Below are positions 30,310 to 48,794 of a DNA stretch of 60,507 bases, one piece after another. The stretch's first letter is position 1, and every line of letters begins with the position of its first letter. The stretch lies in IMG/VR virus record IMGVR_UViG_3300030090_004814, positions 1-60,507 of that record. One strand, 5' to 3'. The position numbers and the translations under genes were made by a program. Below the pieces are notes generated by a model, which worked only from the letters and a program-made list of their open reading frames with translations, was not told the origin of the DNA and did not search any database. This stretch comes from a virus.

Positions 30310-30332
30310 ACCTAAAAAATAGAAAGCAAATA

Positions 30333-31487
30333 ATGTGGATAATCCCAAAGAATATATCAGACACCTATCCCTCTGTAGTGGTTACGAGGGAATCGGAAGT
30401 GGACTCAGAAGAGTTCTCCCTAATGTGCGAGAAATCGCTCATGTTGAAATCGAAACCTTCGCTATCTGCAACCTGGTTGCGAAGATGGAAGCGAACCAAA
30501 TTCATCCAGCACCTGTGTTCACGGACCTTAAAGAATTCCCATTCAGAAAGTTTCGTGGATGCGTTGACATCCTGTCTGGTGGATTCCCCTGCCAACCTTT
30601 CTCAGGAGCAGGACTCAAGAAAGCAACAGAAGATCCAAGACACTTGTTCCCCTACATCCTTGAAGGAATCAAAGAGTGTAGACCCACTGTCTTGTTCCTC
30701 GAAAACGTCGAAGGGATCATCAGTTGCAAGACAGCCGATGGAGAATCAGTTCTCCACTATGTCCTCAGATCGTTGGAAGAAGTGGGTTACATCGCAGAGG
30801 CAGGAGTATTCTCAGCGTCTGAAGTCGGAGCGACTCATCAGAGAAAGCGAGTCTTCATCTTGGCCTACTCCAGCAGCGAGGGATTGGAAAGGATACTACA
30901 ATGTAGAGAGCCAAAAGAAGCGGTTCAGAAACTTACTACCAGACGCAGTGGAAGCACAGGAGATGTTGAGTTGGCCTACAGCGAGGACATCGGATGCAGA
31001 GGGGGGAAGGATCGAGACGGAGATAACAGACAAAGGATTCAGGAGCAAGAGGAAGAAGAGCGACCAATGGTTTGGAGCGAAGCTAAGAGACGCAGTGGAG
31101 ACGCACGAGAATTGGCCGACACCAACAGTAGCAGAGGGAGGGAAGATTGGGAACAACCCGAACTATGGACAGCTAGGACTGAGCAACCATCCCGAAGTAC
31201 ATGGGCAGAAAGTGCAGAGGGAGAAGCTTCACAAGGACAGGAAAGGATTATCCAAAGCTGGCCTTCACGACCAGGCGAAGCTCAACAAGAGTGGGAAGAG
31301 CCGAGAGTTATTGTGGGGAACCCCAAAGGAGGTAGACAGCAGAGCAGCACACACAGACAGGGGCAAGAGCAACTTGGGGGAGCAAGTACAGCACAATACA
31401 GGGAAGAAGCTCAATGCGAATTGGGTGGAGCAATTAATGGGGCTGCCAGTGGGGTGGACCCAATTGCCAACAGAGTGGATCGACTAA
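30333..31487 (+). CDS. Nested second-frame ORF over the methyltransferase gene
   Basis: A 384-codon frame begins with ATG at 30333, two bases before the methyltransferase GTG. Its product has WVTSQRQEYSQRLKSERL, three WPT motifs (WPTPAARDWKG, WPTARTSDAEGG, WPTPTVAEGG) and a C-terminal LNANWVEQLMGLPVGWTQLP. Proteins with WPTP repeats and LNPxWVExLMGxPxGWT ends are common in phage databases. The same bases give LAYS and VDRLRxLGN in the methyltransferase frame, so this family may be a dual-coded protein or a shadow of the enzyme. T-poor sequence here also lowers stop-codon chance. Confidence 0.35.
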   Translation: MWIIPKNISDTYPSVVVTRESEVDSEEFSLMCEKSLMLKSKPSLSATWLRRWKRTKFIQHLCSRTLKNSHSESFVDALTSCLVDSPANLSQEQDSRKQQKIQDTCSPTSLKESKSVDPLSCSSKTSKGSSVARQPMENQFSTMSSDRWKKWVTSQRQEYSQRLKSERLIRESESSSWPTPAARDWKGYYNVESQKKRFRNLLPDAVEAQEMLSWPTARTSDAEGGRIETEITDKGFRSKRKKSDQWFGAKLRDAVETHENWPTPTVAEGGKIGNNPNYGQLGLSNHPEVHGQKVQREKLHKDRKGLSKAGLHDQAKLNKSGKSRELLWGTPKEVDSRAAHTDRGKSNLGEQVQHNTGKKLNANWVEQLMGLPVGWTQLPTEWID

Positions 31488-31564
31488 GATTGTTAGGCAA
31501 CGGTGTTGTACCACAGGTTGCAGAAAAAGCATTTGTAACTTTACTAAGGAGGTTTAATGCCTAG
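30335..31564 (+). CDS. DNA (cytosine-5) methyltransferase
   Basis: A 409-residue enzyme that transfers a methyl group from S-adenosylmethionine to C5 of cytosine. Motifs: I LSLCSGYEGIGSG (11-23), IV GGFPCQPFSG with catalytic C86, VI ENV (123-125), VIII QRKRVFIL (169-176), and X near the C-terminus (RVDRLRLLGNGVVPQVAE). The region between VIII and X has repeated LAYS/LADT segments, as in many phage enzymes. The start must be the GTG at 30335, because no in-frame ATG lies before motif I and a stop is at 30320. It may protect phage DNA from host restriction; no cognate nuclease is adjacent. A second frame is open through 94% of the gene. Confidence 0.93.
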   Translation: MDNPKEYIRHLSLCSGYEGIGSGLRRVLPNVREIAHVEIETFAICNLVAKMEANQIHPAPVFTDLKEFPFRKFRGCVDILSGGFPCQPFSGAGLKKATEDPRHLFPYILEGIKECRPTVLFLENVEGIISCKTADGESVLHYVLRSLEEVGYIAEAGVFSASEVGATHQRKRVFILAYSSSEGLERILQCREPKEAVQKLTTRRSGSTGDVELAYSEDIGCRGGKDRDGDNRQRIQEQEEEERPMVWSEAKRRSGDARELADTNSSRGREDWEQPELWTARTEQPSRSTWAESAEGEASQGQERIIQSWPSRPGEAQQEWEEPRVIVGNPKGGRQQSSTHRQGQEQLGGASTAQYREEAQCELGGAINGAASGVDPIANRVDRLRLLGNGVVPQVAEKAFVTLLRRFNA

Positions 31565-32165: not shown

Positions 32166-35100
32166 TTACTCAAGAGAAATAAACCCATTCTCTGTTTGTT
32201 CCAAAAGAAAGCTAGCAGCTTTAGAAAGTCTTGCCCTTACTTCTGGGTTAGAGCTATTCTTAAATACTTCTTTCATCCTGTTACTGAAGAACAAAGCAGG
32301 TACATAATTGTTTAACATTATGTTCTTATAACCTTCTTTAGTAAATAACTCTCCACCAATCTTCCTGACTTGTTCAGGAGTAGCTCCTAGTTTAGGGAAA
32401 GCAGGAGCATGTCTCTTAAATGTTTTCGCTGATCTCTTATAACTATTAACAAGATTCTGTAATGTATCTCTAAGTTCGTCATCAGACACTGGCTTTGACG
32501 TAGCAAGTTTGTTAAGTGCTTTACGCATAGCTAGTTTATCCTGCTCGATTGGTCTGGTAAAATTATATAAGGCAGTCTGTGGTTTTATCTCATAAGGTTT
32601 TAAAGGGGAAAATTCATCCCTTAATAACTTAGACATAGTGTACGTAGGGTCATCACTTAGCATACCTTTTATGTTTTCACTAAGCCTCATGAAAGTTGGA
32701 GCACCGTAAGCTTCTTTAGCAAAGCTAGCTAAACCTTTAGCAGCTTTAGTTCCTAAGTCATCATGCTCAAAAAAGATAGCCTCATCTTTTGAATTCTTAT
32801 TGTTCAGCATGTTGTAGAAAGCTTTAGTAGCTATCTGACCTTCGAGGAAAGGAGCTGAAAAAAGAATATGCATTCCGTGACCCATAGCCTCTAAAGGACT
32901 CTCCCCTCTTCCTAACGATCTTTGTATCGCAGGGAAAGCATCCAAGTAAGTAGAGTAAGGATTCAAGTAAGTTAAATCCCAAGAGTAATACTTACCATTC
33001 TTCTTGGTATATAAGAATGTATGGTTACGTAAATAAGAAGGCACACTAAGTTGTAAAGCTTCCTTCTCTTCATCTCCTAAATCATCAGCAGGTCTGTGCC
33101 CTAACCCATAAACAAATATTAGTAGTGCAGCTTCCGCAGCAAACGTAGCCACTGTAGAAACAGCTCCAACAGTAGCAGCTCCAGCAGCTCTTTGTAATCC
33201 TCTTTTCCTTATGACAGGATTTTTTGACTTAATTTCTTGAGCAGCTAACATGGTATTGTTAACCATTATCCTGCCTACTTCTGCTCTGAATCGATAATAA
33301 GGAGCCACTAAAGCACCCGCAGTAGATCTACTGAAAGCTTCTGTACCAGGCATGTTTTGAGAAAAGTATTGAGCAGTCTTCTTTAACTTATCAATTGCCA
33401 TTAGCTCAAGCTCTCTATCAGACTTGCCTTTGAATCCAGTATCTATTCCACTCTCATCATCATATGCTCTAGCTTCTTGAAGATTGTTTAACTCATATTC
33501 GTACACAGCTATTTTGTAGAATGAGTCTGAAGCTAATGAAAGTTTCTGTAGTTTGTTCTCAAGCTTCTTAGAAATCTTATACCCTTTCTTCCCTACTTGT
33601 TTTAAAGTATCTAATAAAGACTTATCACTATCTGCTTCAATAGGAGGAAGACCATTCTCTTTCTGTAATTCATTTAACAGATCAGAAGTTTGTTCTCTCA
33701 AACTTTCCTCAGTGATAAGTCCGTTGACCATGTCCTCATAAAGAGCAACAGAAAATTCTCTTTCAATAACCCCATCCTTAACAAGTTTATTCACATACTC
33801 ATTAACTTCTTTAGGGCTTGTGATAGCTCGTGCTAACTCTCCTTTGATCTTAGTTATCCCTGTGCCTGGTGGTAATCCTAAAGACAATGCGAAGTATGTT
33901 GTGTTACCTACTATGTTTCTAATGTAGTAGGTAGTACTAGTAAGTGTCTTTATACCTAGCGAGTATCCTATACTTTTCCTGACTATACCATTTATAGATT
34001 TAGTTAACTTGTCAGTAAGCCTTGTTCCTTCTTGAACAAAGGTTCTTGCTTCTTGTATGTCATTAATTAATTCAGGTGGTGCGTAATAACCTTTACCAAT
34101 TAGAGGACTAAAAACATCGTCCTTGTCTGTCTTTAAAGCAGTATCTATTAGTTGGTAATCATCTAACCCTAGTTCATTCCTTTGTTCTCTAGTCACTAAC
34201 CATCTCTGATCAGGCTCTCCAGCTGTCCCAAGTCTTTCTAAGTTAGCATCAACGGCAAGCCTGTTGACTAAATAACTAACATTCTCATAAGTTTTTACAA
34301 CATTCCAAGTGCCGTCAGGTATTTCTCCTAATGCTTCCCTCACAGCTTTTGGGAGATCTTGTTTCTTTTTAAGAACATCTGCATCTAAATCTTCTCCATA
34401 CTTAGAAAAGTTATTCTTGAAAGTAGCTTCTAAAAAAGCTTCTTCACTTTGACCCTCAGTTTCTAAAGCTTGAGCTAAAGTTTTAGCTAGCCCACTAAAC
34501 TCTGCTCTCTTAGCTGACTCAGATTTAGTTATCCAGTCTACATCATTGTTTGCGTAAGCTTCTTTATCTTTTTTGATGACCTCTGCTGAGATTTCATTTT
34601 CTTGATTTTGTTTAAAAATTTCTCTAGCTGCATTCAACCTAAGTGCTTTTGCTTTAGGATTATCTTTAGAAAATATAAACTCTTTCCAAGAAGCGTCTTG
34701 GAAGATCCTATACGAACGAGTTAAGTAAAAACCTTCTTGAGCACTGAACCGTGCTTCTATGTCCGTGTACTCATCTTTATCTATCTTTGATAACTGTTCT
34801 GAAATGTATCGTGAGGATGCAGTTATTTTAAATCTCAGTCCTCTAAGTGTTTCAGCTAACTCAGGAGATTTCTCACTGATCTTATTTAAAGCTTGATCTA
34901 CTCTAGCAAGGGTTTCTTGTCGTATCCTTTGCTTTTCCTTTATCACTGCTGACTCATAATCACGGTCTGCTTTTTTAACAGCCTCTATAACATCTTTAGG
35001 ATTTTCTAAATCTCTAGCAGCTAACTTAGCAGCGTCTCTTTCAGCAATAAAGACCGCATCAACTTCTTCACTTACGTTGATATTGTTTCTTTCTCCAGTA

Positions 35101-38100
35101 GCTTGTTCTAATAAAGTATTTATTTCTGCGGTAAACCCACCCCATCCTTCATTAACAAGTCTTTCTATCTGCCCTATATAAGATTCAACTTCTGTACGGA
35201 TACCATTCATGAAGCTTTCTCTCCGCTCCATTTCTCTCTTCCATCTAGGATCTTTTAAGCCTGTGAACCAGGACCAAAAAGTTTTGATCCAATTAGGTTT
35301 ACCCTCAACAGGGCTAGTGTAACTACCTAACTGACCTATAGGTACTTCAATCAAAGTTCTAAATTCTTTTTCAATGTCTGTCAAAGCTTGCGGGTCATCA
35401 GCTTTAGTTATTACATTTCTTATTTGTTCCAGCCCTGCTTCAGCAGTAGCACCCCCATTGTACACAATCATTTTTTCAGGGTTAAAAACATAACCCTTTC
35501 TTAGATGTGTCCTAGCAGTGCCTAAAGAATCTAACTTCAAAGCTAACTCTTTACTTACGTCAGATGCTAAATCCTTATCAAGACTTTGTGAGATTAAGTC
35601 AATAGAGTTATCTAATGACTGCATTGCTATTTCTTTTAGCTTTGGAAATGAATTTAATATGGTTAAAGAATCTCTATAATCTTTACCACTTACTGCTTCA
35701 GCGGTTAGCTTTTTGATAGCATTGATTGCAATACTTTTAACAACTTCATCCCCTTGAGCTTCAATGTCCTCTTCAGAAAAAATTCCTGTATCAAATAATA
35801 AATCATTTTCTGAAGAAATAAAAGATAAGAACTTATCATCAATCCCTAAATCAGCAAAAGATTCAACGCTTAGATTATCATTTAAAAAAGTATCTTCAAT
35901 AGATTTAATTGTAAACTCAGATTCAAGGTACCCATTTAAAGAAGCCTCTTCTCCTTTTGTTTTTCTATAAGATGACAAGGCATCTATTAAAGCAACTTTG
36001 TTGAACTCAAGAACACCCTCATCAACAGTCACCGCTGCTAAGTTTGGTGAGTTTGTTGTTCTTACTATATATTTTTTTGTTATATTATTTCTGACATGAA
36101 CAGCAGCATCTACTAGTAATTCATTAGCCCCCTCAGTAGTCTCTGTGGTGAAGTCAGTCTCTTGGCTGTTTGCTGAAAGAGCAGGTCCCTCATCAAGGTA
36201 TATTGCAGAAGGTGGGTTGTTATCTATAATGGTTTCAACAGCTTGTGTTTCTGTAGCTACGTTAGTCCCAAACTCATTAAGTACTTTTATTAAGAAAGTA
36301 TCTACTGTGTCACCACTTACTTTAGAAGTAACCATGATATCTTTAATTCTACCAACTGTTACTCCTTCAACATAGTTTTCGCTACCCCTTTGACTTATCT
36401 CAGGAAAAGTTATTTTTTCTTTTCTAGTAGAGACACTCTCTAAAAAGTCTACGTATTTATCCCTAATTACATCTAGTTTAGCACGGTTGAAATTTGGTAT
36501 GCTCTGTTGTACTTCAGGATCAGAAAGCAAGTAGGCTTCTACTTTTTCTATGTTAGCTTGCTGAACTTTCTCTGCTGTTTCTTCTTGGTTGCGTACCCCT
36601 TTATTTGTAATCTTTCTTTTAGAAACTTCATTTGCTTTAAGCCAAAGAGAATCTTCAGTTGTTATAGGTGTTTCTTCTGGCTCAACAGATAGCTCAACAT
36701 CTTCAACTTCTAACTTTTCTTTTGAAGCTTTTTCAAAATCAACGAACCTCCCCCTGATAGAACTAGCTAATGTATTTGTGTAAGCTGCTTCTATATCATT
36801 CAAATACTTCGCTACACTCTTGTTGATAAATGAATACTGATCCTTGCTCTCTTGAACATTTGGATCTAAGAATCCTCTAACATGTTGAACGAGGTCTTGT
36901 AAGAACTCTAAGAATCCTTTGTCTTTAGTTATGTCAGTCAGCTTAGTTTCGCTCTCAATAAATTGTCTAGTAAACTCTGAAACAATTTCATCAGCCTCCA
37001 TTGTAGGGCTTTGTTCTGAGTTTGGTTCTAATTCACCAGGCAGTATTACATCATCAACCTCCATGCCTTTGTAAACGGCAACGGAGTTTCTTAGCTTATC
37101 TATCCCCTCTCCTTTAGCTAACGACTCATATACTTCAGTAAGTTTCTTTTTAGAGAACTGAAGGAAGTTTAAACCTTCTTCCTGAGAAGATCTCTTCCTC
37201 CACATATCTTTAAGCAAAGAGCTTTCACTAACGTGCACAAACTCGTGTGCGAGCATTGTATCTAAAGCTTTTTTCCTGGCTTCTTTTCCTTTTAAATCTT
37301 TTAACTGCGCTGTGATTTTATCGGTGTCAATTTGTAGTACAATGTTTGGGTTGTCCGTTGTACCAGCATTGATACCAACTCTCATTGGGTTATTATCAGG
37401 GAGCTTGCCATCAACATACTGTATGAATATGTCTTCTTTAGTGTTGGTAGGAACCCAACCACTGATGTAATCAGCTACATCTTCTTTAGTAAGTTTACTT
37501 CCGAAGTTTGTCAGGATAGTTCTGCTAGTTGGTTTCTCAGCTAATGTTTCTTCAAACTCTTCAACGGCTCCTTCTATCTCTGCATCCCCCACAACAGTAA
37601 CATCTTCGGCAACAGGAGCCTCTGCACCTGCTTCTTTAGTTTCAATTGGGTTAGTAACTTTTAAAGATTCTTGTAACTGTTCAGCACTGATAACTAAACC
37701 TGCTTCATCTAAAGCCTGAGAGGCTTGGGCAAGAGCGGTGTTCAGAGCGACTGTTTTCTTGTTCTCTTCGCTTTTTACATTGGTAGATTTCAATAACCTA
37801 TCTGGGCCAAAGAAAGTTTCTGACCCAACAGTCATAGTACCACCTAGAATACTTCCCAACCCACCCGCATAAAGACCTTGAGATATGCGCTCCTTCATGG
37901 GAACAAACTCATTCAATACAGCACTGTCTACAAAAGATCCTATGAATTCATCAAGACCTTCTTCAGCACCTTCAGCAGCAGCACTGCCTAATGCTTTTTT
38001 AATTAAGGTAGAGTTTGCTTCCTTCTTGTATAACTCAGCAGCTTGTTTAGCAATAGTATTTCTTAAAAGAGCTTTAGTTGTTTCCTCATTCGCTTTAAAA

Positions 38101-40115
38101 GCAACATTAGGCACATTGTTTATAGCATTCTTAAATTGTCTAAATGATGCTCCTTTGGCTACAATGTTTTCTAAACCACCTGCACCAAAAGCAGAAAATC
38201 CAGAAGTTATAACACCAGTCAAAGTACCTCTTGCAAAAGCAGCTCCTAAAGCTTTGTCATGTTTTTCTTCATGACTCATATCTTCTGGCAAAGAGTTATA
38301 GATAGAAGCGTAGGTAGCTCCTGCTGATCTGTTAGCAGAAGTTAAAAACAAAGAAGAAGTAATACCAAACTTCTGTGCTGTTTGCTCATTGAAACGACCT
38401 ATAGCTAATGGAGTTTTCTTAGGGTCAATAGCAGCTTCATTTGCAATTCTTTTGATTGCTTGTTCTTTAGAAGCAACGTTATCTAATTTTCTACCAACCC
38501 CTAAAGCTTTAGCCCCTTTAGTTAATGGACCTGCTAAGAAGTAAGTAGAAGCTAAGTCTGCTCCGACAGCTGGAAGTATAGTAGCTAAGTCATAGCCTAC
38601 TCCAAACTCCCCACCGAAAAGACCATCTAGTTCTCTCCTTTGTGACTGTTTCTTTTGAGATTCTTTTAAGTAATTAGCAGAAGCGTCGTTGCCTAGTAAG
38701 GCTCCAATAGAAGCACCAATCCCTACGATTGCTTCAGGGACAGATGCACGGACACCACCCCACCAGTTCTTTGAAGCATCATAGTTTTTCTCATTAGAAA
38801 GAAACTCATCAACAAAGGCAACTCTATCCTCTTTCCATTTCTGTGGGTTCTCAGCTTTTGCTCTAGCCCACTTGTCTCCAACCGCTGATTCTAAATGATC
38901 ACTACTAAGTACATCATCAATGTGATAAGATCTAGAATACATATAGTTTCTTCTAGATTCACTAAGTGCTTTTCTCTGACTAGGAGTAAGTCTGTCATCT
39001 TTTAAAAGCTCATTAAAAGCTTTTGGGTTCTCCATTACAGTTGGGTGTGCAATAGGCACTCCCATTGGAGTAAGTCTTAAATTGTTTTCAGGTTTGTCTT
39101 CATCATACTTAAAAGCACCCTGGTTGTTTGTGTGGACAATAGATAGTTCTTTAATTAAGTTAGCTATTCTCTCATTGGAAAACCTGTAAGAGTTATCAAC
39201 AGAAATACCAGCTGCTTCTGCATCTCCCCATCCTTTTCGTTTAGCAAACTCATTGAGAAAAATTGGAGTAAGGTCTTCTATTTCTTCAGGTAATTCTTCT
39301 GATAAAATTTGTGTTATCTTTTCAGGTCTGTCTGCAAAGATTTGCTGTAACCAATTTCCTTTTGTTCTATAAGTCTCAAGATCAATTGAGTTAACAATGG
39401 CATCGTTAATTGTTTTAGCATAAGGTGAGTCTTTATCACCAAGCATCTCACGTAAAATACCTAAGTCTTCTTCATCTAAATCTGATTCAAAATTAGTTTT
39501 ACCAGGCACCCTTGTAGATTCTAACCCCTCAGAAACTTGCCATAGATCTCTAGGATCAACAGCACCTAGAGTCACTGCACTCAATGCTCTTTGACTAGCT
39601 AACTTCTTTTTATCAGGAGAGGTTCCTAAAACATCATAATCTCCTACTTGTACAGTTCCTCGACCACCTTCTAAAATAGTAGCAAAAGGTAGTTCACCAC
39701 TTGCCATTAAAGATTTTTTAGCCCTATTAAGATATTCATTTTGTTTGGCTGTATCAATTGCAGCAAAATCTACGTTAGGGAAAACTCTATTTACAATACG
39801 CTCATCATTTAAACTACCTGATTGGTAAGCGGTTGATTGATTAGCTAGTGCTGCATAATCTTCATCAGATACTTCCTCCCCATTAGAAGCCCAATTAACA
39901 TAGTAGTTCTGAATATCCGCTTCTTTCTCTCTAGTTAACTCGCCTCGTTTAAAGAGTTCTGTCCGGTAGTAATCTAAATACTGGGGTAGATCCTGATCTG
40001 TTGTTAAATCCTCATCACTGTTGATTTGTTTCCATTGAGGATATGAATATAAAGAACCTAATTCATTATTAATTGGTGTTTCAGCAGTCGCTAAATTTGA
40101 TCTGTTAAGTGCCAC
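32166..40115 (-). CDS. Giant polyvalent internal virion protein with metallopeptidase-like motif
   Basis: A 2,649-residue protein, the largest uninterrupted gene in the window. Residues about 430-800 hold Gly/Ala-rich hydrophobic stretches (PEAIVGIGASIGALLG; YAGGLGSILGGTMTVG) that could enter membranes. H957-E-F-V-H961 is a zinc metallopeptidase-type HExxH. A long charged helical middle follows. The C-terminal about 500 residues (YYIRNIVGNTTYFALSLGL, ALVAPYYRFRAEVGRIM, a membrane-like span, then the L-T-Y-L-NPYS segment) resemble the LPD38 part of phage polyvalent proteins. Such proteins are thought to travel in the capsid and enter the cell with the DNA. It is followed in the opposite strand by the early block. 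Confidence 0.72.
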   Translation of the reverse strand: MALNRSNLATAETPINNELGSLYSYPQWKQINSDEDLTTDQDLPQYLDYYRTELFKRGELTREKEADIQNYYVNWASNGEEVSDEDYAALANQSTAYQSGSLNDERIVNRVFPNVDFAAIDTAKQNEYLNRAKKSLMASGELPFATILEGGRGTVQVGDYDVLGTSPDKKKLASQRALSAVTLGAVDPRDLWQVSEGLESTRVPGKTNFESDLDEEDLGILREMLGDKDSPYAKTINDAIVNSIDLETYRTKGNWLQQIFADRPEKITQILSEELPEEIEDLTPIFLNEFAKRKGWGDAEAAGISVDNSYRFSNERIANLIKELSIVHTNNQGAFKYDEDKPENNLRLTPMGVPIAHPTVMENPKAFNELLKDDRLTPSQRKALSESRRNYMYSRSYHIDDVLSSDHLESAVGDKWARAKAENPQKWKEDRVAFVDEFLSNEKNYDASKNWWGGVRASVPEAIVGIGASIGALLGNDASANYLKESQKKQSQRRELDGLFGGEFGVGYDLATILPAVGADLASTYFLAGPLTKGAKALGVGRKLDNVASKEQAIKRIANEAAIDPKKTPLAIGRFNEQTAQKFGITSSLFLTSANRSAGATYASIYNSLPEDMSHEEKHDKALGAAFARGTLTGVITSGFSAFGAGGLENIVAKGASFRQFKNAINNVPNVAFKANEETTKALLRNTIAKQAAELYKKEANSTLIKKALGSAAAEGAEEGLDEFIGSFVDSAVLNEFVPMKERISQGLYAGGLGSILGGTMTVGSETFFGPDRLLKSTNVKSEENKKTVALNTALAQASQALDEAGLVISAEQLQESLKVTNPIETKEAGAEAPVAEDVTVVGDAEIEGAVEEFEETLAEKPTSRTILTNFGSKLTKEDVADYISGWVPTNTKEDIFIQYVDGKLPDNNPMRVGINAGTTDNPNIVLQIDTDKITAQLKDLKGKEARKKALDTMLAHEFVHVSESSLLKDMWRKRSSQEEGLNFLQFSKKKLTEVYESLAKGEGIDKLRNSVAVYKGMEVDDVILPGELEPNSEQSPTMEADEIVSEFTRQFIESETKLTDITKDKGFLEFLQDLVQHVRGFLDPNVQESKDQYSFINKSVAKYLNDIEAAYTNTLASSIRGRFVDFEKASKEKLEVEDVELSVEPEETPITTEDSLWLKANEVSKRKITNKGVRNQEETAEKVQQANIEKVEAYLLSDPEVQQSIPNFNRAKLDVIRDKYVDFLESVSTRKEKITFPEISQRGSENYVEGVTVGRIKDIMVTSKVSGDTVDTFLIKVLNEFGTNVATETQAVETIIDNNPPSAIYLDEGPALSANSQETDFTTETTEGANELLVDAAVHVRNNITKKYIVRTTNSPNLAAVTVDEGVLEFNKVALIDALSSYRKTKGEEASLNGYLESEFTIKSIEDTFLNDNLSVESFADLGIDDKFLSFISSENDLLFDTGIFSEEDIEAQGDEVVKSIAINAIKKLTAEAVSGKDYRDSLTILNSFPKLKEIAMQSLDNSIDLISQSLDKDLASDVSKELALKLDSLGTARTHLRKGYVFNPEKMIVYNGGATAEAGLEQIRNVITKADDPQALTDIEKEFRTLIEVPIGQLGSYTSPVEGKPNWIKTFWSWFTGLKDPRWKREMERRESFMNGIRTEVESYIGQIERLVNEGWGGFTAEINTLLEQATGERNNINVSEEVDAVFIAERDAAKLAARDLENPKDVIEAVKKADRDYESAVIKEKQRIRQETLARVDQALNKISEKSPELAETLRGLRFKITASSRYISEQLSKIDKDEYTDIEARFSAQEGFYLTRSYRIFQDASWKEFIFSKDNPKAKALRLNAAREIFKQNQENEISAEVIKKDKEAYANNDVDWITKSESAKRAEFSGLAKTLAQALETEGQSEEAFLEATFKNNFSKYGEDLDADVLKKKQDLPKAVREALGEIPDGTWNVVKTYENVSYLVNRLAVDANLERLGTAGEPDQRWLVTREQRNELGLDDYQLIDTALKTDKDDVFSPLIGKGYYAPPELINDIQEARTFVQEGTRLTDKLTKSINGIVRKSIGYSLGIKTLTSTTYYIRNIVGNTTYFALSLGLPPGTGITKIKGELARAITSPKEVNEYVNKLVKDGVIEREFSVALYEDMVNGLITEESLREQTSDLLNELQKENGLPPIEADSDKSLLDTLKQVGKKGYKISKKLENKLQKLSLASDSFYKIAVYEYELNNLQEARAYDDESGIDTGFKGKSDRELELMAIDKLKKTAQYFSQNMPGTEAFSRSTAGALVAPYYRFRAEVGRIMVNNTMLAAQEIKSKNPVIRKRGLQRAAGAATVGAVSTVATFAAEAALLIFVYGLGHRPADDLGDEEKEALQLSVPSYLRNHTFLYTKKNGKYYSWDLTYLNPYSTYLDAFPAIQRSLGRGESPLEAMGHGMHILFSAPFLEGQIATKAFYNMLNNKNSKDEAIFFEHDDLGTKAAKGLASFAKEAYGAPTFMRLSENIKGMLSDDPTYTMSKLLRDEFSPLKPYEIKPQTALYNFTRPIEQDKLAMRKALNKLATSKPVSDDELRDTLQNLVNSYKRSAKTFKRHAPAFPKLGATPEQVRKIGGELFTKEGYKNIMLNNYVPALFFSNRMKEVFKNSSNPEVRARLSKAASFLLEQTENGFISLE

Positions 40116-46390: not shown

Positions 46391-47683
46391 ATGAAAGCAC
46401 TCTACCCAAAGCAAGGCACCGCTGCCGACTTTTTTATTAACACCCTTAGTAATGGTAAATCAACTATTGATACTTCTAGTGTAGGTACAGGTAAAACTGT
46501 AGTCGCTAGCCACATATCAAAAGAGTTAGGAAGACCAGTTGCTGTTATTTGCCCAAAAGCTGTCATCCCATCATGGGAAAGAGAGTTAGAAGAATTTGGT
46601 GTAAAACCTTTATTTGTATTGAATTACGAAAAGATAAGGACTGGTAATACAGAGTTTATGACTAAGCGAGGTAAGAAGATAATGACCTGGCATTTACCTG
46701 AAGACACTATCATCTTAATGGACGAGATACATAAAGCAAAAGGTCCTTATACTCAAAATGCACAACTATTAATATCTTTGATTACGCAAAAGTTTTTGGT
46801 GCACGGCATGAGTGCTACTGCATGTGAAGACCCTACAGAAATGAGAGCTATAGGGTACATGTTAGGTCTACATAGTTTGAATAAATCTGTTTCTCCAAAA
46901 AGGAGTTGGTACTCATGGATGTTATCTAATGGTTGTCTACAAGACCAATGGAAGACTTGGAAGTTAGCTAGTAGAAAAAAGTTAAAATCTGTTAAAGAAA
47001 CAATTTATGGGGTTACTGGTTTTAAGTTAACTATTGAAGACTTCCCTGATTCATTTAGAGATAACCGAGTTTTTGTAGAGCCAATACAATTCAATGCTCC
47101 TAATAAAATTATAAAAGCTTACGAGGACTTAGGGGTTACTCCAGACATTGTACAACAATTTATTGAGCACGGTAGTGTTGAGAACAGTGACTTTGATATT
47201 GTGAATATCCTACGTGCTAGAATGCTCGCTGAGAGCTACAAGGTTTTAGATCTAGCGGATATGTCAACTGATCTGTACCACCAAGGTAACTCTGTTGTGA
47301 TCTTTGTGAACTTCAAAGAAACGATTGATACCCTTTGCCAAAAACTAGATTGTGGCAGGATTGATGGTGGGCAAACTGCTCAAGAAAGACAGAAAGAGAT
47401 TGATGATTTTCAATCTGATAAAAGAAGAATACTTGCTGTTAATACAGCAGCAGGAGGCACAGGACTGTCTCTGCATGATGTGAAAGGCAAACACCCTAGA
47501 GTTAGTTTGATTAGCCCTTCTTTCTCTGCTAAAAACCATCTACAAGTCCTAGGAAGAATACACAGGAACGGAGCAAAGTCAGATGCTGTACAAAAGATAT
47601 TAGTGGCTGCGGGATCTATAGAAGAGAACGTAATGAAAGCCATAGAAAGAAAACTTAAAAACTTAGAAACATTACATGGATAA
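46391..47683 (+). CDS. SF2 (SNF2-like) helicase
   Basis: A 430-residue two-lobed ATPase. Motif I is GTGKT (32-36), motif II DEIH (111-114), motif III near GMSATA, and motif VI QVLGRIHRNG (385-394). The order and the NTAAGGTGLSLHD segment fit the SNF2/DEAD-like branch seen in many phage replication modules. It would move on or unwind DNA using ATP. It overlaps the next gene by eight bases. Confidence 0.9.
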   Translation: MKALYPKQGTAADFFINTLSNGKSTIDTSSVGTGKTVVASHISKELGRPVAVICPKAVIPSWERELEEFGVKPLFVLNYEKIRTGNTEFMTKRGKKIMTWHLPEDTIILMDEIHKAKGPYTQNAQLLISLITQKFLVHGMSATACEDPTEMRAIGYMLGLHSLNKSVSPKRSWYSWMLSNGCLQDQWKTWKLASRKKLKSVKETIYGVTGFKLTIEDFPDSFRDNRVFVEPIQFNAPNKIIKAYEDLGVTPDIVQQFIEHGSVENSDFDIVNILRARMLAESYKVLDLADMSTDLYHQGNSVVIFVNFKETIDTLCQKLDCGRIDGGQTAQERQKEIDDFQSDKRRILAVNTAAGGTGLSLHDVKGKHPRVSLISPSFSAKNHLQVLGRIHRNGAKSDAVQKILVAAGSIEENVMKAIERKLKNLETLHG

Positions 47684-48794
47684 CCAACCAGATCATGGAA
47701 GTAGAGGACACGCAGAGTTTTCACCATCTAGTCTTAAATATGTAGCCACTTGTCCTGGCTTCAAAGGGCGAAGTGGTACTAACGCTGCTGCTGAAAAAGG
47801 AACACGGATACATGAAGCATTAGAGATTAGAGATCCTTCAGCATTACACGATGAAGAGGAGCTTGAGATTTATGAGCAGATTGTAAAAGATGAAGCTGAG
47901 TTCATGCAGGAAATTATTGGGGATGAGGAATATGAAGAGCACAATGAAATGCTCACTCACGTACAGTTAAATGGGACTAGTACATGGGGGACTTGTGATC
48001 GTTTAATACTGTATGCGGATAAAGCGATTATGGGCGATTACAAAACTGGTATATCAGTTATTGATTCACCTAGAGACAATTGGCAAGCTAAAGCATATGC
48101 TTTGGGAGCTTTTCAAAAGTTTAAACAAATTAAGGAAATTACTTTCGTATTTTATGTTCCTGTTAGGAATGAAGTTCTACATGATGTATTTAAGCGTGAA
48201 GAAATGGAGGAGATGACCCATGAACTTTCTTTAGTTATCTTACAAGGCGAAAAAATTAGACCACAGTGGGAGTATGGTAAACCTGCTATAGCCGATGTTA
48301 ACCCAACTGTTAATTGCAGATTCTGTGCTTTTGAAGCTAAGTGCCCTGCTTTAGGTGCGATAGCTATACAAGTAGCTAAAAAGGTAGCCGACCATTCTAT
48401 TCCTGATACAGACATATCTGATCCTGATGATCCAAAGACTCTTGAAGAACTTTGGGCAATCGCAAAGATAGTAACTAACTGGGCAACACGTATAAAAGCC
48501 AAAGCTATTACTATGGCTAAAGAAGGGCATGAGTTTCCTTCATTGAGATTGAAGTCAATGGGGGCTACAAAAAAATGTAACGACAATAAAAAATTAGCTG
48601 AAATTGCTAAGAAGCATAACTTGTCGGATGAAGAATTACTCACACTTGCAACTTTTCCTTTGCAAAAGATTGCAACTGCTGTAAGTAAACAAGCCCCTGA
48701 TGGGGAGAAAGGACAAGCAAAACAGGATTTTTTGAATGAATTGCTTGAAGAAAAAATTGTCGATGTCTCCGAAACAAGGTACACATTGACGTAA
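47676..48794 (+). CDS. Cas4/RecB-like PD-(D/E)XK nuclease (DUF2800-like)
   Basis: A 372-residue nuclease with SPSSLKYVATCPGF at the N-terminus, GTRIHEALE (H46-E47), D108 in GTCDRL, and GDYKTG (D121-Y-K123) as the PD-(D/E)XK core. A CRFCAFEAKCPAL segment supplies three of the Cys residues typical of the iron-sulfur cluster, the fourth perhaps C26. It matches DUF2800/Cas4-like phage exonucleases, which probably process DNA ends for recombination. Confidence 0.85.
   Translation: MDNQPDHGSRGHAEFSPSSLKYVATCPGFKGRSGTNAAAEKGTRIHEALEIRDPSALHDEEELEIYEQIVKDEAEFMQEIIGDEEYEEHNEMLTHVQLNGTSTWGTCDRLILYADKAIMGDYKTGISVIDSPRDNWQAKAYALGAFQKFKQIKEITFVFYVPVRNEVLHDVFKREEMEEMTHELSLVILQGEKIRPQWEYGKPAIADVNPTVNCRFCAFEAKCPALGAIAIQVAKKVADHSIPDTDISDPDDPKTLEELWAIAKIVTNWATRIKAKAITMAKEGHEFPSLRLKSMGATKKCNDNKKLAEIAKKHNLSDEELLTLATFPLQKIATAVSKQAPDGEKGQAKQDFLNELLEEKIVDVSETRYTLT

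Follow-up and report, generated by a model that had tools for sequence, protein, structure and literature searches.

The window analysed here is a 60507-base IMG/VR virus record, which carries on its plus strand a locus that is open in two frames. Frame A (30335–31564) starts at a GTG, is open over 409 codons and encodes a C5-cytosine methyltransferase with motifs I–VIII and X, here called alpha. Frame B (30333–31487) starts at an ATG, is open over 384 codons and encodes beta, whose N-terminal half lies opposite the catalytic domain and is followed by four WPTP cassettes and motif IX. B corresponds to A+1, with the third codon position of B being the first codon position of A (B3 = A1), and the doubly read stretch is about 1150 nt long. 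GTG 30335 is the earliest possible start for A, given that an in-frame TAG (30320–30322) is followed only by AAA GCA AAT AAT before it. The methyltransferase is adjoined by a minus-strand ORF of 2649 residues (32166–40115), probably a large virion protein; another minus-strand ORF of the window, of 210 residues (48152–48784), is antisense to the ORF 47676–48794.

Frame A matches PF00145 (E = 8.7e-35) and phrog_363 (E = 1.4e-50), and M.HhaI is among its PDB matches. The motifs SLCSGYEGIG (I), GGFPCQP (IV), FLENVEG (VI) and HQRKRVF (VIII) occur in this order in one polypeptide, and membership of PF00145 by motifs I, IV (PCQ), VI (ENV) and VIII (QxRxR) in one chain is therefore met. The catalytic motif IV (PCQ; 30587–30595, plus strand) was read from the sequence and aligned to M.HhaI; motif VIII (HQRKRVFI; 30836–30859, plus strand) lies where frame B reads a conserved ..RESESSS just before its first cassette. 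The Pfam match reaches only profile position 234 of 324, and the gene departs from the usual monomer layout, in which one chain holds motifs I–VIII, motif IX and the recognition region: the last two are in frame B here. The middle of A is a hydrophilic, low-complexity 'LADS..G..R' linker; the frame also carries LAYS, LADT, GATHQRKRVF and RVDRLRLLGNG. Motif X (NRVDRLRLLGNGVVPQV; 31469–31519, plus strand) is in A, sits after motif IX and extends past the frame-B stop.

Frame B matches phrog_1008, 'DNA methyltransferase' (E = 3e-27), and has no Pfam or NCBIfam match. The phrog_1008 profile (329 positions) covers frame B residues 67–378 and also the frame-A motif X: its positions 27–281 match B and 292–322 match the last 31 residues of A. 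Since the end of the profile is matched by A, the members of this family hold in one frame the recognition part, IX and X, which two frames share here, X being in the other frame.

The cassettes, all on the plus strand, have the form W-x-T-P...D/E......L...V and were assigned to types in a module catalogue. Cassette 1 (WPTPAARDWKG...; 30861–30971) is of type O; cassette 2 (WPTARTSDAEGG...LRDAVETHE; 30972–31112) is of type B, with 12 copies in the set and an identity over the first 30 positions of 0.67 in frame B and 0.37 in frame A; cassette 3 (WPTPTVAEGGKIGNNPNYGQLGLSNHP...; 31113–31313) is of type A, with 17 copies and identities of 0.78 and 0.46, respectively; and cassette 4 (WGTPKEVD...LGEQV; 31314–31409) is of type G. 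Motif IX (LNANWVEQLMGLPVGWT; 31410–31460, plus strand) follows, with the family consensus LNxxWVExLMGxPxGWT and, in the present clade, LNxNWVEQLMGxPxGWT. An earlier sequence-only reading of this DNA had reported the 384-codon frame overlapping the methyltransferase, the WPTP repeats and LNANWVEQLMGLPVGWTQ end in that second frame, and LAYS in the enzyme frame, all of which held: the WPTP/WPTA/WPTP/WGTP repeats and the LNANWVEQLMGLPVGWTQ end are both within B. Its statement that the same DNA gives LNANWVEQLMGLPVGWTQ and VDRLRLLGN failed, as motif IX ends at 31460 and motif X starts at 31469.

A second open frame of this length could be a meaningless shadow that owes its openness to base composition and to the enzyme's amino-acid sequence, and the gene is indeed T-poor (0.187) and A-rich. 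In 3000 trials, the synonymous codons were then shuffled with the A protein and its codon usage left unchanged, and the stops in B were counted. None is present in the window gene, against 6.06 +/- 1.60 expected, and none of the 3000 shuffles was stop-free; the control frame A+2 has 18 stops against 22.9 expected. In the reverse shuffle, with protein B kept, 17.0 stops were expected in A and none is observed. The openness of B is thus real and more than chance, and low T content, which had been offered as a simpler partial explanation, is no explanation, because B is stop-free beyond the shuffle expectation.

The frame under selection was studied across 27 usable genes (the window, the IMG/VR loci L001–L014 and L016–L028, and phage C75C1), among which all ungapped alignments are in frame. 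The stop test was made on 16 loci with less than 85% identity and the substitution test on 13 disjoint pairs; as pairs share ancestry, the summed counts of the all-pair, fine-scan and Firmicutes analyses are non-independent and the 13 disjoint pairs are safer. Frame B had 2 stops against 36.9 expected in the N part (z -8.5), 0 against 7.0 in motifs VII–VIII, and 0 against 51.6 in the recognition region (TRD; z -11.2). No depletion was seen in the control frame A+2 of the same loci, with 113 against 114.7, 16 against 15.1 and 180 against 187.1, respectively. Frequent stops in B of homologues, which would have refuted a second coding frame, were looked for and not found.

Substitutions at A1/A2/A3 in the 13 pairs numbered 307/195/491 in the N part, 404/125/109 in the TRD, where the maximum was at A1 in every pair, 79/39/16 in motif IX and 63/16/145 in motif X. 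The four-fold sites of A were changed at 183/603 in the N part, 23/159 in motifs VII–VIII, 24/417 in the recognition region, 0/81 in IX and 72/157 in X; in the recognition region and IX these sites are thus almost invariant. Amino-acid identity agrees: 0.68 in A and 0.87 in B for the TRD, 0.57 and 0.84 for motif IX, and 0.91 and 0.53 for motif X. Firmicutes relatives gave A1/A2/A3 values of 0.48/0.19/0.16 in the TRD and 0.50/0.15/0.10 in IX, with the N part and X maximal at A3. The concentration of substitutions at A1 in the TRD and IX, and at A3 in the N part and X, shows that selection passes from frame A to frame B downstream of motif VIII and returns to A upstream of motif X. On finer scanning, an extra A-selected island, WPxRPGxxQxxWEEPRV, was seen within the cassette region; in the window this short frame-A element (WPSRPGEAQQEWEEPRV; 31259–31309, plus strand) has its substitution maximum at A3 in three bins (0.525, 0.315 and 0.276). 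The selected frame thus alternates: A (I–VIII), B (cassettes), A (WPxRPG..WEEPRV), B (IX) and A (X). Along most of the overlap only one frame is under selection and the other is merely kept open; the exception lies around motifs VII–VIII, where both frames are constrained, as the four-fold changes there compared with the rest of the N part indicate.

These results all but exclude the shadow explanation. The shuffles and the codon-position test speak against it, with B3-dominated substitutions in the recognition region in 13/13 disjoint pairs, as does the fact that marine phages share cassettes conserved in B with a Paenibacillus plasmid and with an E. coli phage. Of the two options left by the sequence-only reading, a dual-coded protein held, and the idea that the whole database family is a shadow of C5 methyltransferases failed, since the cassettes and IX vary at the third codon position of B. 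Frame B is very likely a real protein, with the reservation that no protein or ribosome-profiling data were available for it.

The module catalogue of the 27 loci contains 115 cassettes of about 39 types, in differing orders. Loci L003 and L007 differ by the swap of a single cassette (B-H-K-A-C and B-H-M-A-C), and near-identical cassettes occur in the Paenibacillus polymyxa plasmid L035 and the E. coli phage L040. In every cassette type with at least 4 copies, B is better conserved than A. It is inferred that the cassettes are target-recognition modules; recognition function was not shown, and structural support is lacking. An AlphaFold2 model of beta alone (18 homologues) had a pLDDT of 42 and was uninformative; the model of a monomer relative, L055, presented a good catalytic domain and the motif IX helix, with cassettes below a pLDDT of 50. 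Foldseek with the L055 model found M.HhaI and M.HaeIII, as expected, and was uninformative on the cassettes; in a PDB profile search with monomers only the catalytic half aligned. A search of an E. coli genome collection with the ESSI2 gene returned only two partial matches.

The start codons of the two frames form an overlapping pair, ATGTG (30333–30337, plus strand). A B start codon is present at the gene start in 24/24 loci holding it (22 ATG and 2 GTG), within 2–10 nt of the A start. The pair is ATGTG in 18 loci and GTGTG in 2 (L026 and L028), and involves another ATG in 4; A has its own ATG 7–10 nt upstream of the B ATG in L004, L013, L021, L023 and L029. The two bases preceding the GTG are AT in 18/18 ATGTG loci, and they lie outside the coding sequence of A where A starts there. 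Moreover, in 22/24 loci the N part of B contains no stop. With a conserved start and a stop-free N part, the likeliest arrangement in this clade is that each frame is initiated independently at a shared site. That both proteins start at one site is likely, the translation of B from ATG 30333 being inferred; the suggestion that the ATG/GTG pair would serve both frames is in this way supported by conservation, with no experimental proof.

Alternatively, beta could be real but internally initiated, with ATG 30333 unused. In favour of this, the open stretch of B begins only at about motif IV in the Paenibacillus plasmid L035 and in Lihuaxuella L123, the N part of B is interrupted by a stop in L008 and L009, and an ATG precedes MSSxxWK in many loci. 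Against it stand the stop-free N part in most of the clade, with strong depletion, and the conservation of the B start codon in sequence that is mostly non-coding for A; the internal ATG is also absent in L017–L020, L022 and L024. We consider internal initiation unlikely for the present clade and retain initiation at the twin starts. Other clades, in which B is closed upstream, are inferred to need an internal start for B. The N-part stop of L008 and L009 is a single one, in the same context in both (HT*KMQ) and beside an insertion, and beta must start further in there.

The relatives present several layouts of the same parts. Pelosinus L128 encodes motifs I–VIII, WPTP cassettes, IX, WP..QYDYEPPRV and X, in that order, in a single frame of 419 residues, which indicates that the parts of B are ordinary enzyme parts moved to the other frame. 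In ShiLan gp70 and L045–L059, IX and X are in a single chain and the first one or two cassettes are in +1. In Yecey3 (gp86/gp85), many actinophages, Brevibacillus L122 and Alicyclobacillus L131, A ends shortly after VIII and the cassettes, IX and X are in +1. In the present clade, C75C1, Paenibacillus phage Pagassa, Lihuaxuella, KpV2811, ESSI2 and Shinella, the cassettes and IX are in +1 and X is in A, the arrangement reported for M.EcoHK31I (PMC3404938).

Some individual loci add to this variety. In the actinophage monomers L042 and L045–L059, the first 1–2 LPTP cassettes after VIII are in +1 and the rest are in frame, a layout that looks as if an indel had fused a two-frame ancestor, which remains only a possibility. 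Gordonia phage JKSyngboy (L044, 1489–2553) presents a fourth layout, with the cassettes in +1 and IX and X in the frame of I–VIII. In the Paenibacillus polymyxa plasmid L035 (1501–2991), frame B has two tandem copies of motif IX (LNPTWVECLMGFPLDWT and LNPAWVECLMGFPLGWT) with stops between them. In Mycobacterium phage Jarcob (L032, gp69/gp70), the gene that is single-frame in ShiLan is interrupted within the catalytic half and forms two overlapping ORFs. Near relatives of the window gene are also carried by L133, L134 and L136, metagenome-assembled genomes labelled Kiritimatiellia, Opitutae and Verrucomicrobiales; these may hint at Verrucomicrobiota hosts, with the caution that the binned contigs may be phage.

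Two further explanations must be weighed against these layouts. In the first, compensating indels in a former monomer shifted its recognition region out of frame, leaving a decaying gene or an A-only enzyme. Monomers do exist (L128 and ShiLan) and frame layouts vary between clades; however, selection on B persists after the split in clades whose hosts differ widely, A is the less conserved frame in the recognition region, and the B3 excess is found in every pair tested, so that this explanation is practically excluded. In the second, programmed frameshifting yields a single chain that starts in A, passes by +1 into B after VIII and returns to A before X. The monomer relatives, with all parts in one frame, mean that a fused chain would function. 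Nevertheless, this route would take two shifts in spite of a frame A kept open along the whole gene, and an open B over the catalytic half with a conserved start is unneeded for a shift from A. Frameshifting seems very unlikely, although slippery sites were not systematically searched.

The reading that we prefer, and regard as likely, is that the locus encodes two subunits of one C5-cytosine methyltransferase in two frames, co-initiated and protecting phage DNA; enzyme activity and translation of B are untested. The openness of both frames and the selection on B (cassettes and IX) and on A (catalytic part and X) are shown; the translation of B from ATG 30333, the heterodimer, the cassettes as recognition modules and the protection of phage DNA are inferred. 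In the proposed mechanism, alpha and beta would be translated from starts two bases apart (GTG 30335 and ATG 30333); alpha would perform AdoMet binding and catalysis through I–VIII and contribute motif X; beta would provide recognition through the WPTP-type cassette array and motif IX; and both would assemble into one enzyme methylating the DNA of the phage, most likely as a defence against restriction by the host. Among the window ORFs, no partner endonuclease was seen adjoining the gene, and the enzyme is thus probably an orphan protecting phage DNA. By analogy with multispecific Bacillus-phage enzymes, several cassettes could give several targets.

A bolder reading, towards which the evidence leans only slightly, sees one gene with twin starts and two full-length proteins, each with its working half opposite the passive half of the other. 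The cassettes would be exchanged among phages under selection in B, with A only kept open there, and the result would be a modular, possibly multispecific, two-subunit methyltransferase missed by annotation. For bacterial viruses, evidence of selection seldom supports long overlaps on the same strand; here the codon-position and stop-depletion evidence spans dozens of loci, and the division between frames follows known enzyme anatomy. As B has no Pfam or NCBIfam match, the annotations of many phages, plasmids and bacteria probably lack or misname the recognition subunits of C5 methyltransferases, the genomes concerned here being of Paenibacillus, Lihuaxuella, Shinella, and Escherichia and Klebsiella phages. 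It also becomes testable why the recognition half is overprinted in another frame and whether the methylated sequence changes when cassettes are swapped.

In the open-access literature searched, which leaves subscription papers mostly outside, no paper was found on WPTP repeats in methyltransferases, nor any describing overlapping frames in a phage cytosine methyltransferase. The multispecific C5 methyltransferases of the Bacillus phages SPR, phi3T and H2 have, between motifs VIII and IX, several target-recognition modules that are interchangeable. These are single-frame monomers, unlike the window gene, and any likeness of the modules to the cassettes, whose recognition role is inferred, is by position only, with no sequence relation shown.

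Split C5 methyltransferases are able to reassemble in the cell, best with a C-terminal piece beginning in the interval from motif VIII to the recognition domain (PMC3404938), which is where this gene changes frame. M.AquI, an alpha/beta C5 methyltransferase of target CYCGRG, is split between VIII and IX (PMC3404938), a layout shared by Yecey3 gp86/gp85, many actinophages, L122 and L131. The window gene does not meet the M.AquI-type criterion, IX and X in the small subunit; unlike in M.AquI, X stays in alpha here and alpha reads through.

In M.EcoHK31I, the larger subunit has motifs I–VIII and X and the smaller polypeptide has only motif IX (PMC3404938). The small subunit of M.EcoHK31I is nested in the gene of the large one in another frame; M.EcoHK31I, like M.EaeI, is a naturally split C5 methyltransferase of target YGGCCR. 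The window gene is like M.EcoHK31I in having, by the selection found in each frame, I–VIII and X in the large subunit (A) and IX in the small one (B), and nesting in another frame is met by B (30333–31487) in relation to A (30335–31564). M.EcoHK31I-type membership is claimed for this layout and not for sequence descent, as the M.EcoHK31I sequence was not compared. The predicted TRD of M.EcoHK31I was placed in the large subunit (PMC3404938), whereas selection here puts the recognition region in beta. Also unlike M.EcoHK31I, beta is open from the start of alpha, spans almost the whole gene and carries several WPTP cassettes. The split-enzyme kind is known, and what is apparently new is the co-initiated, full-length overlap together with the cassette array.
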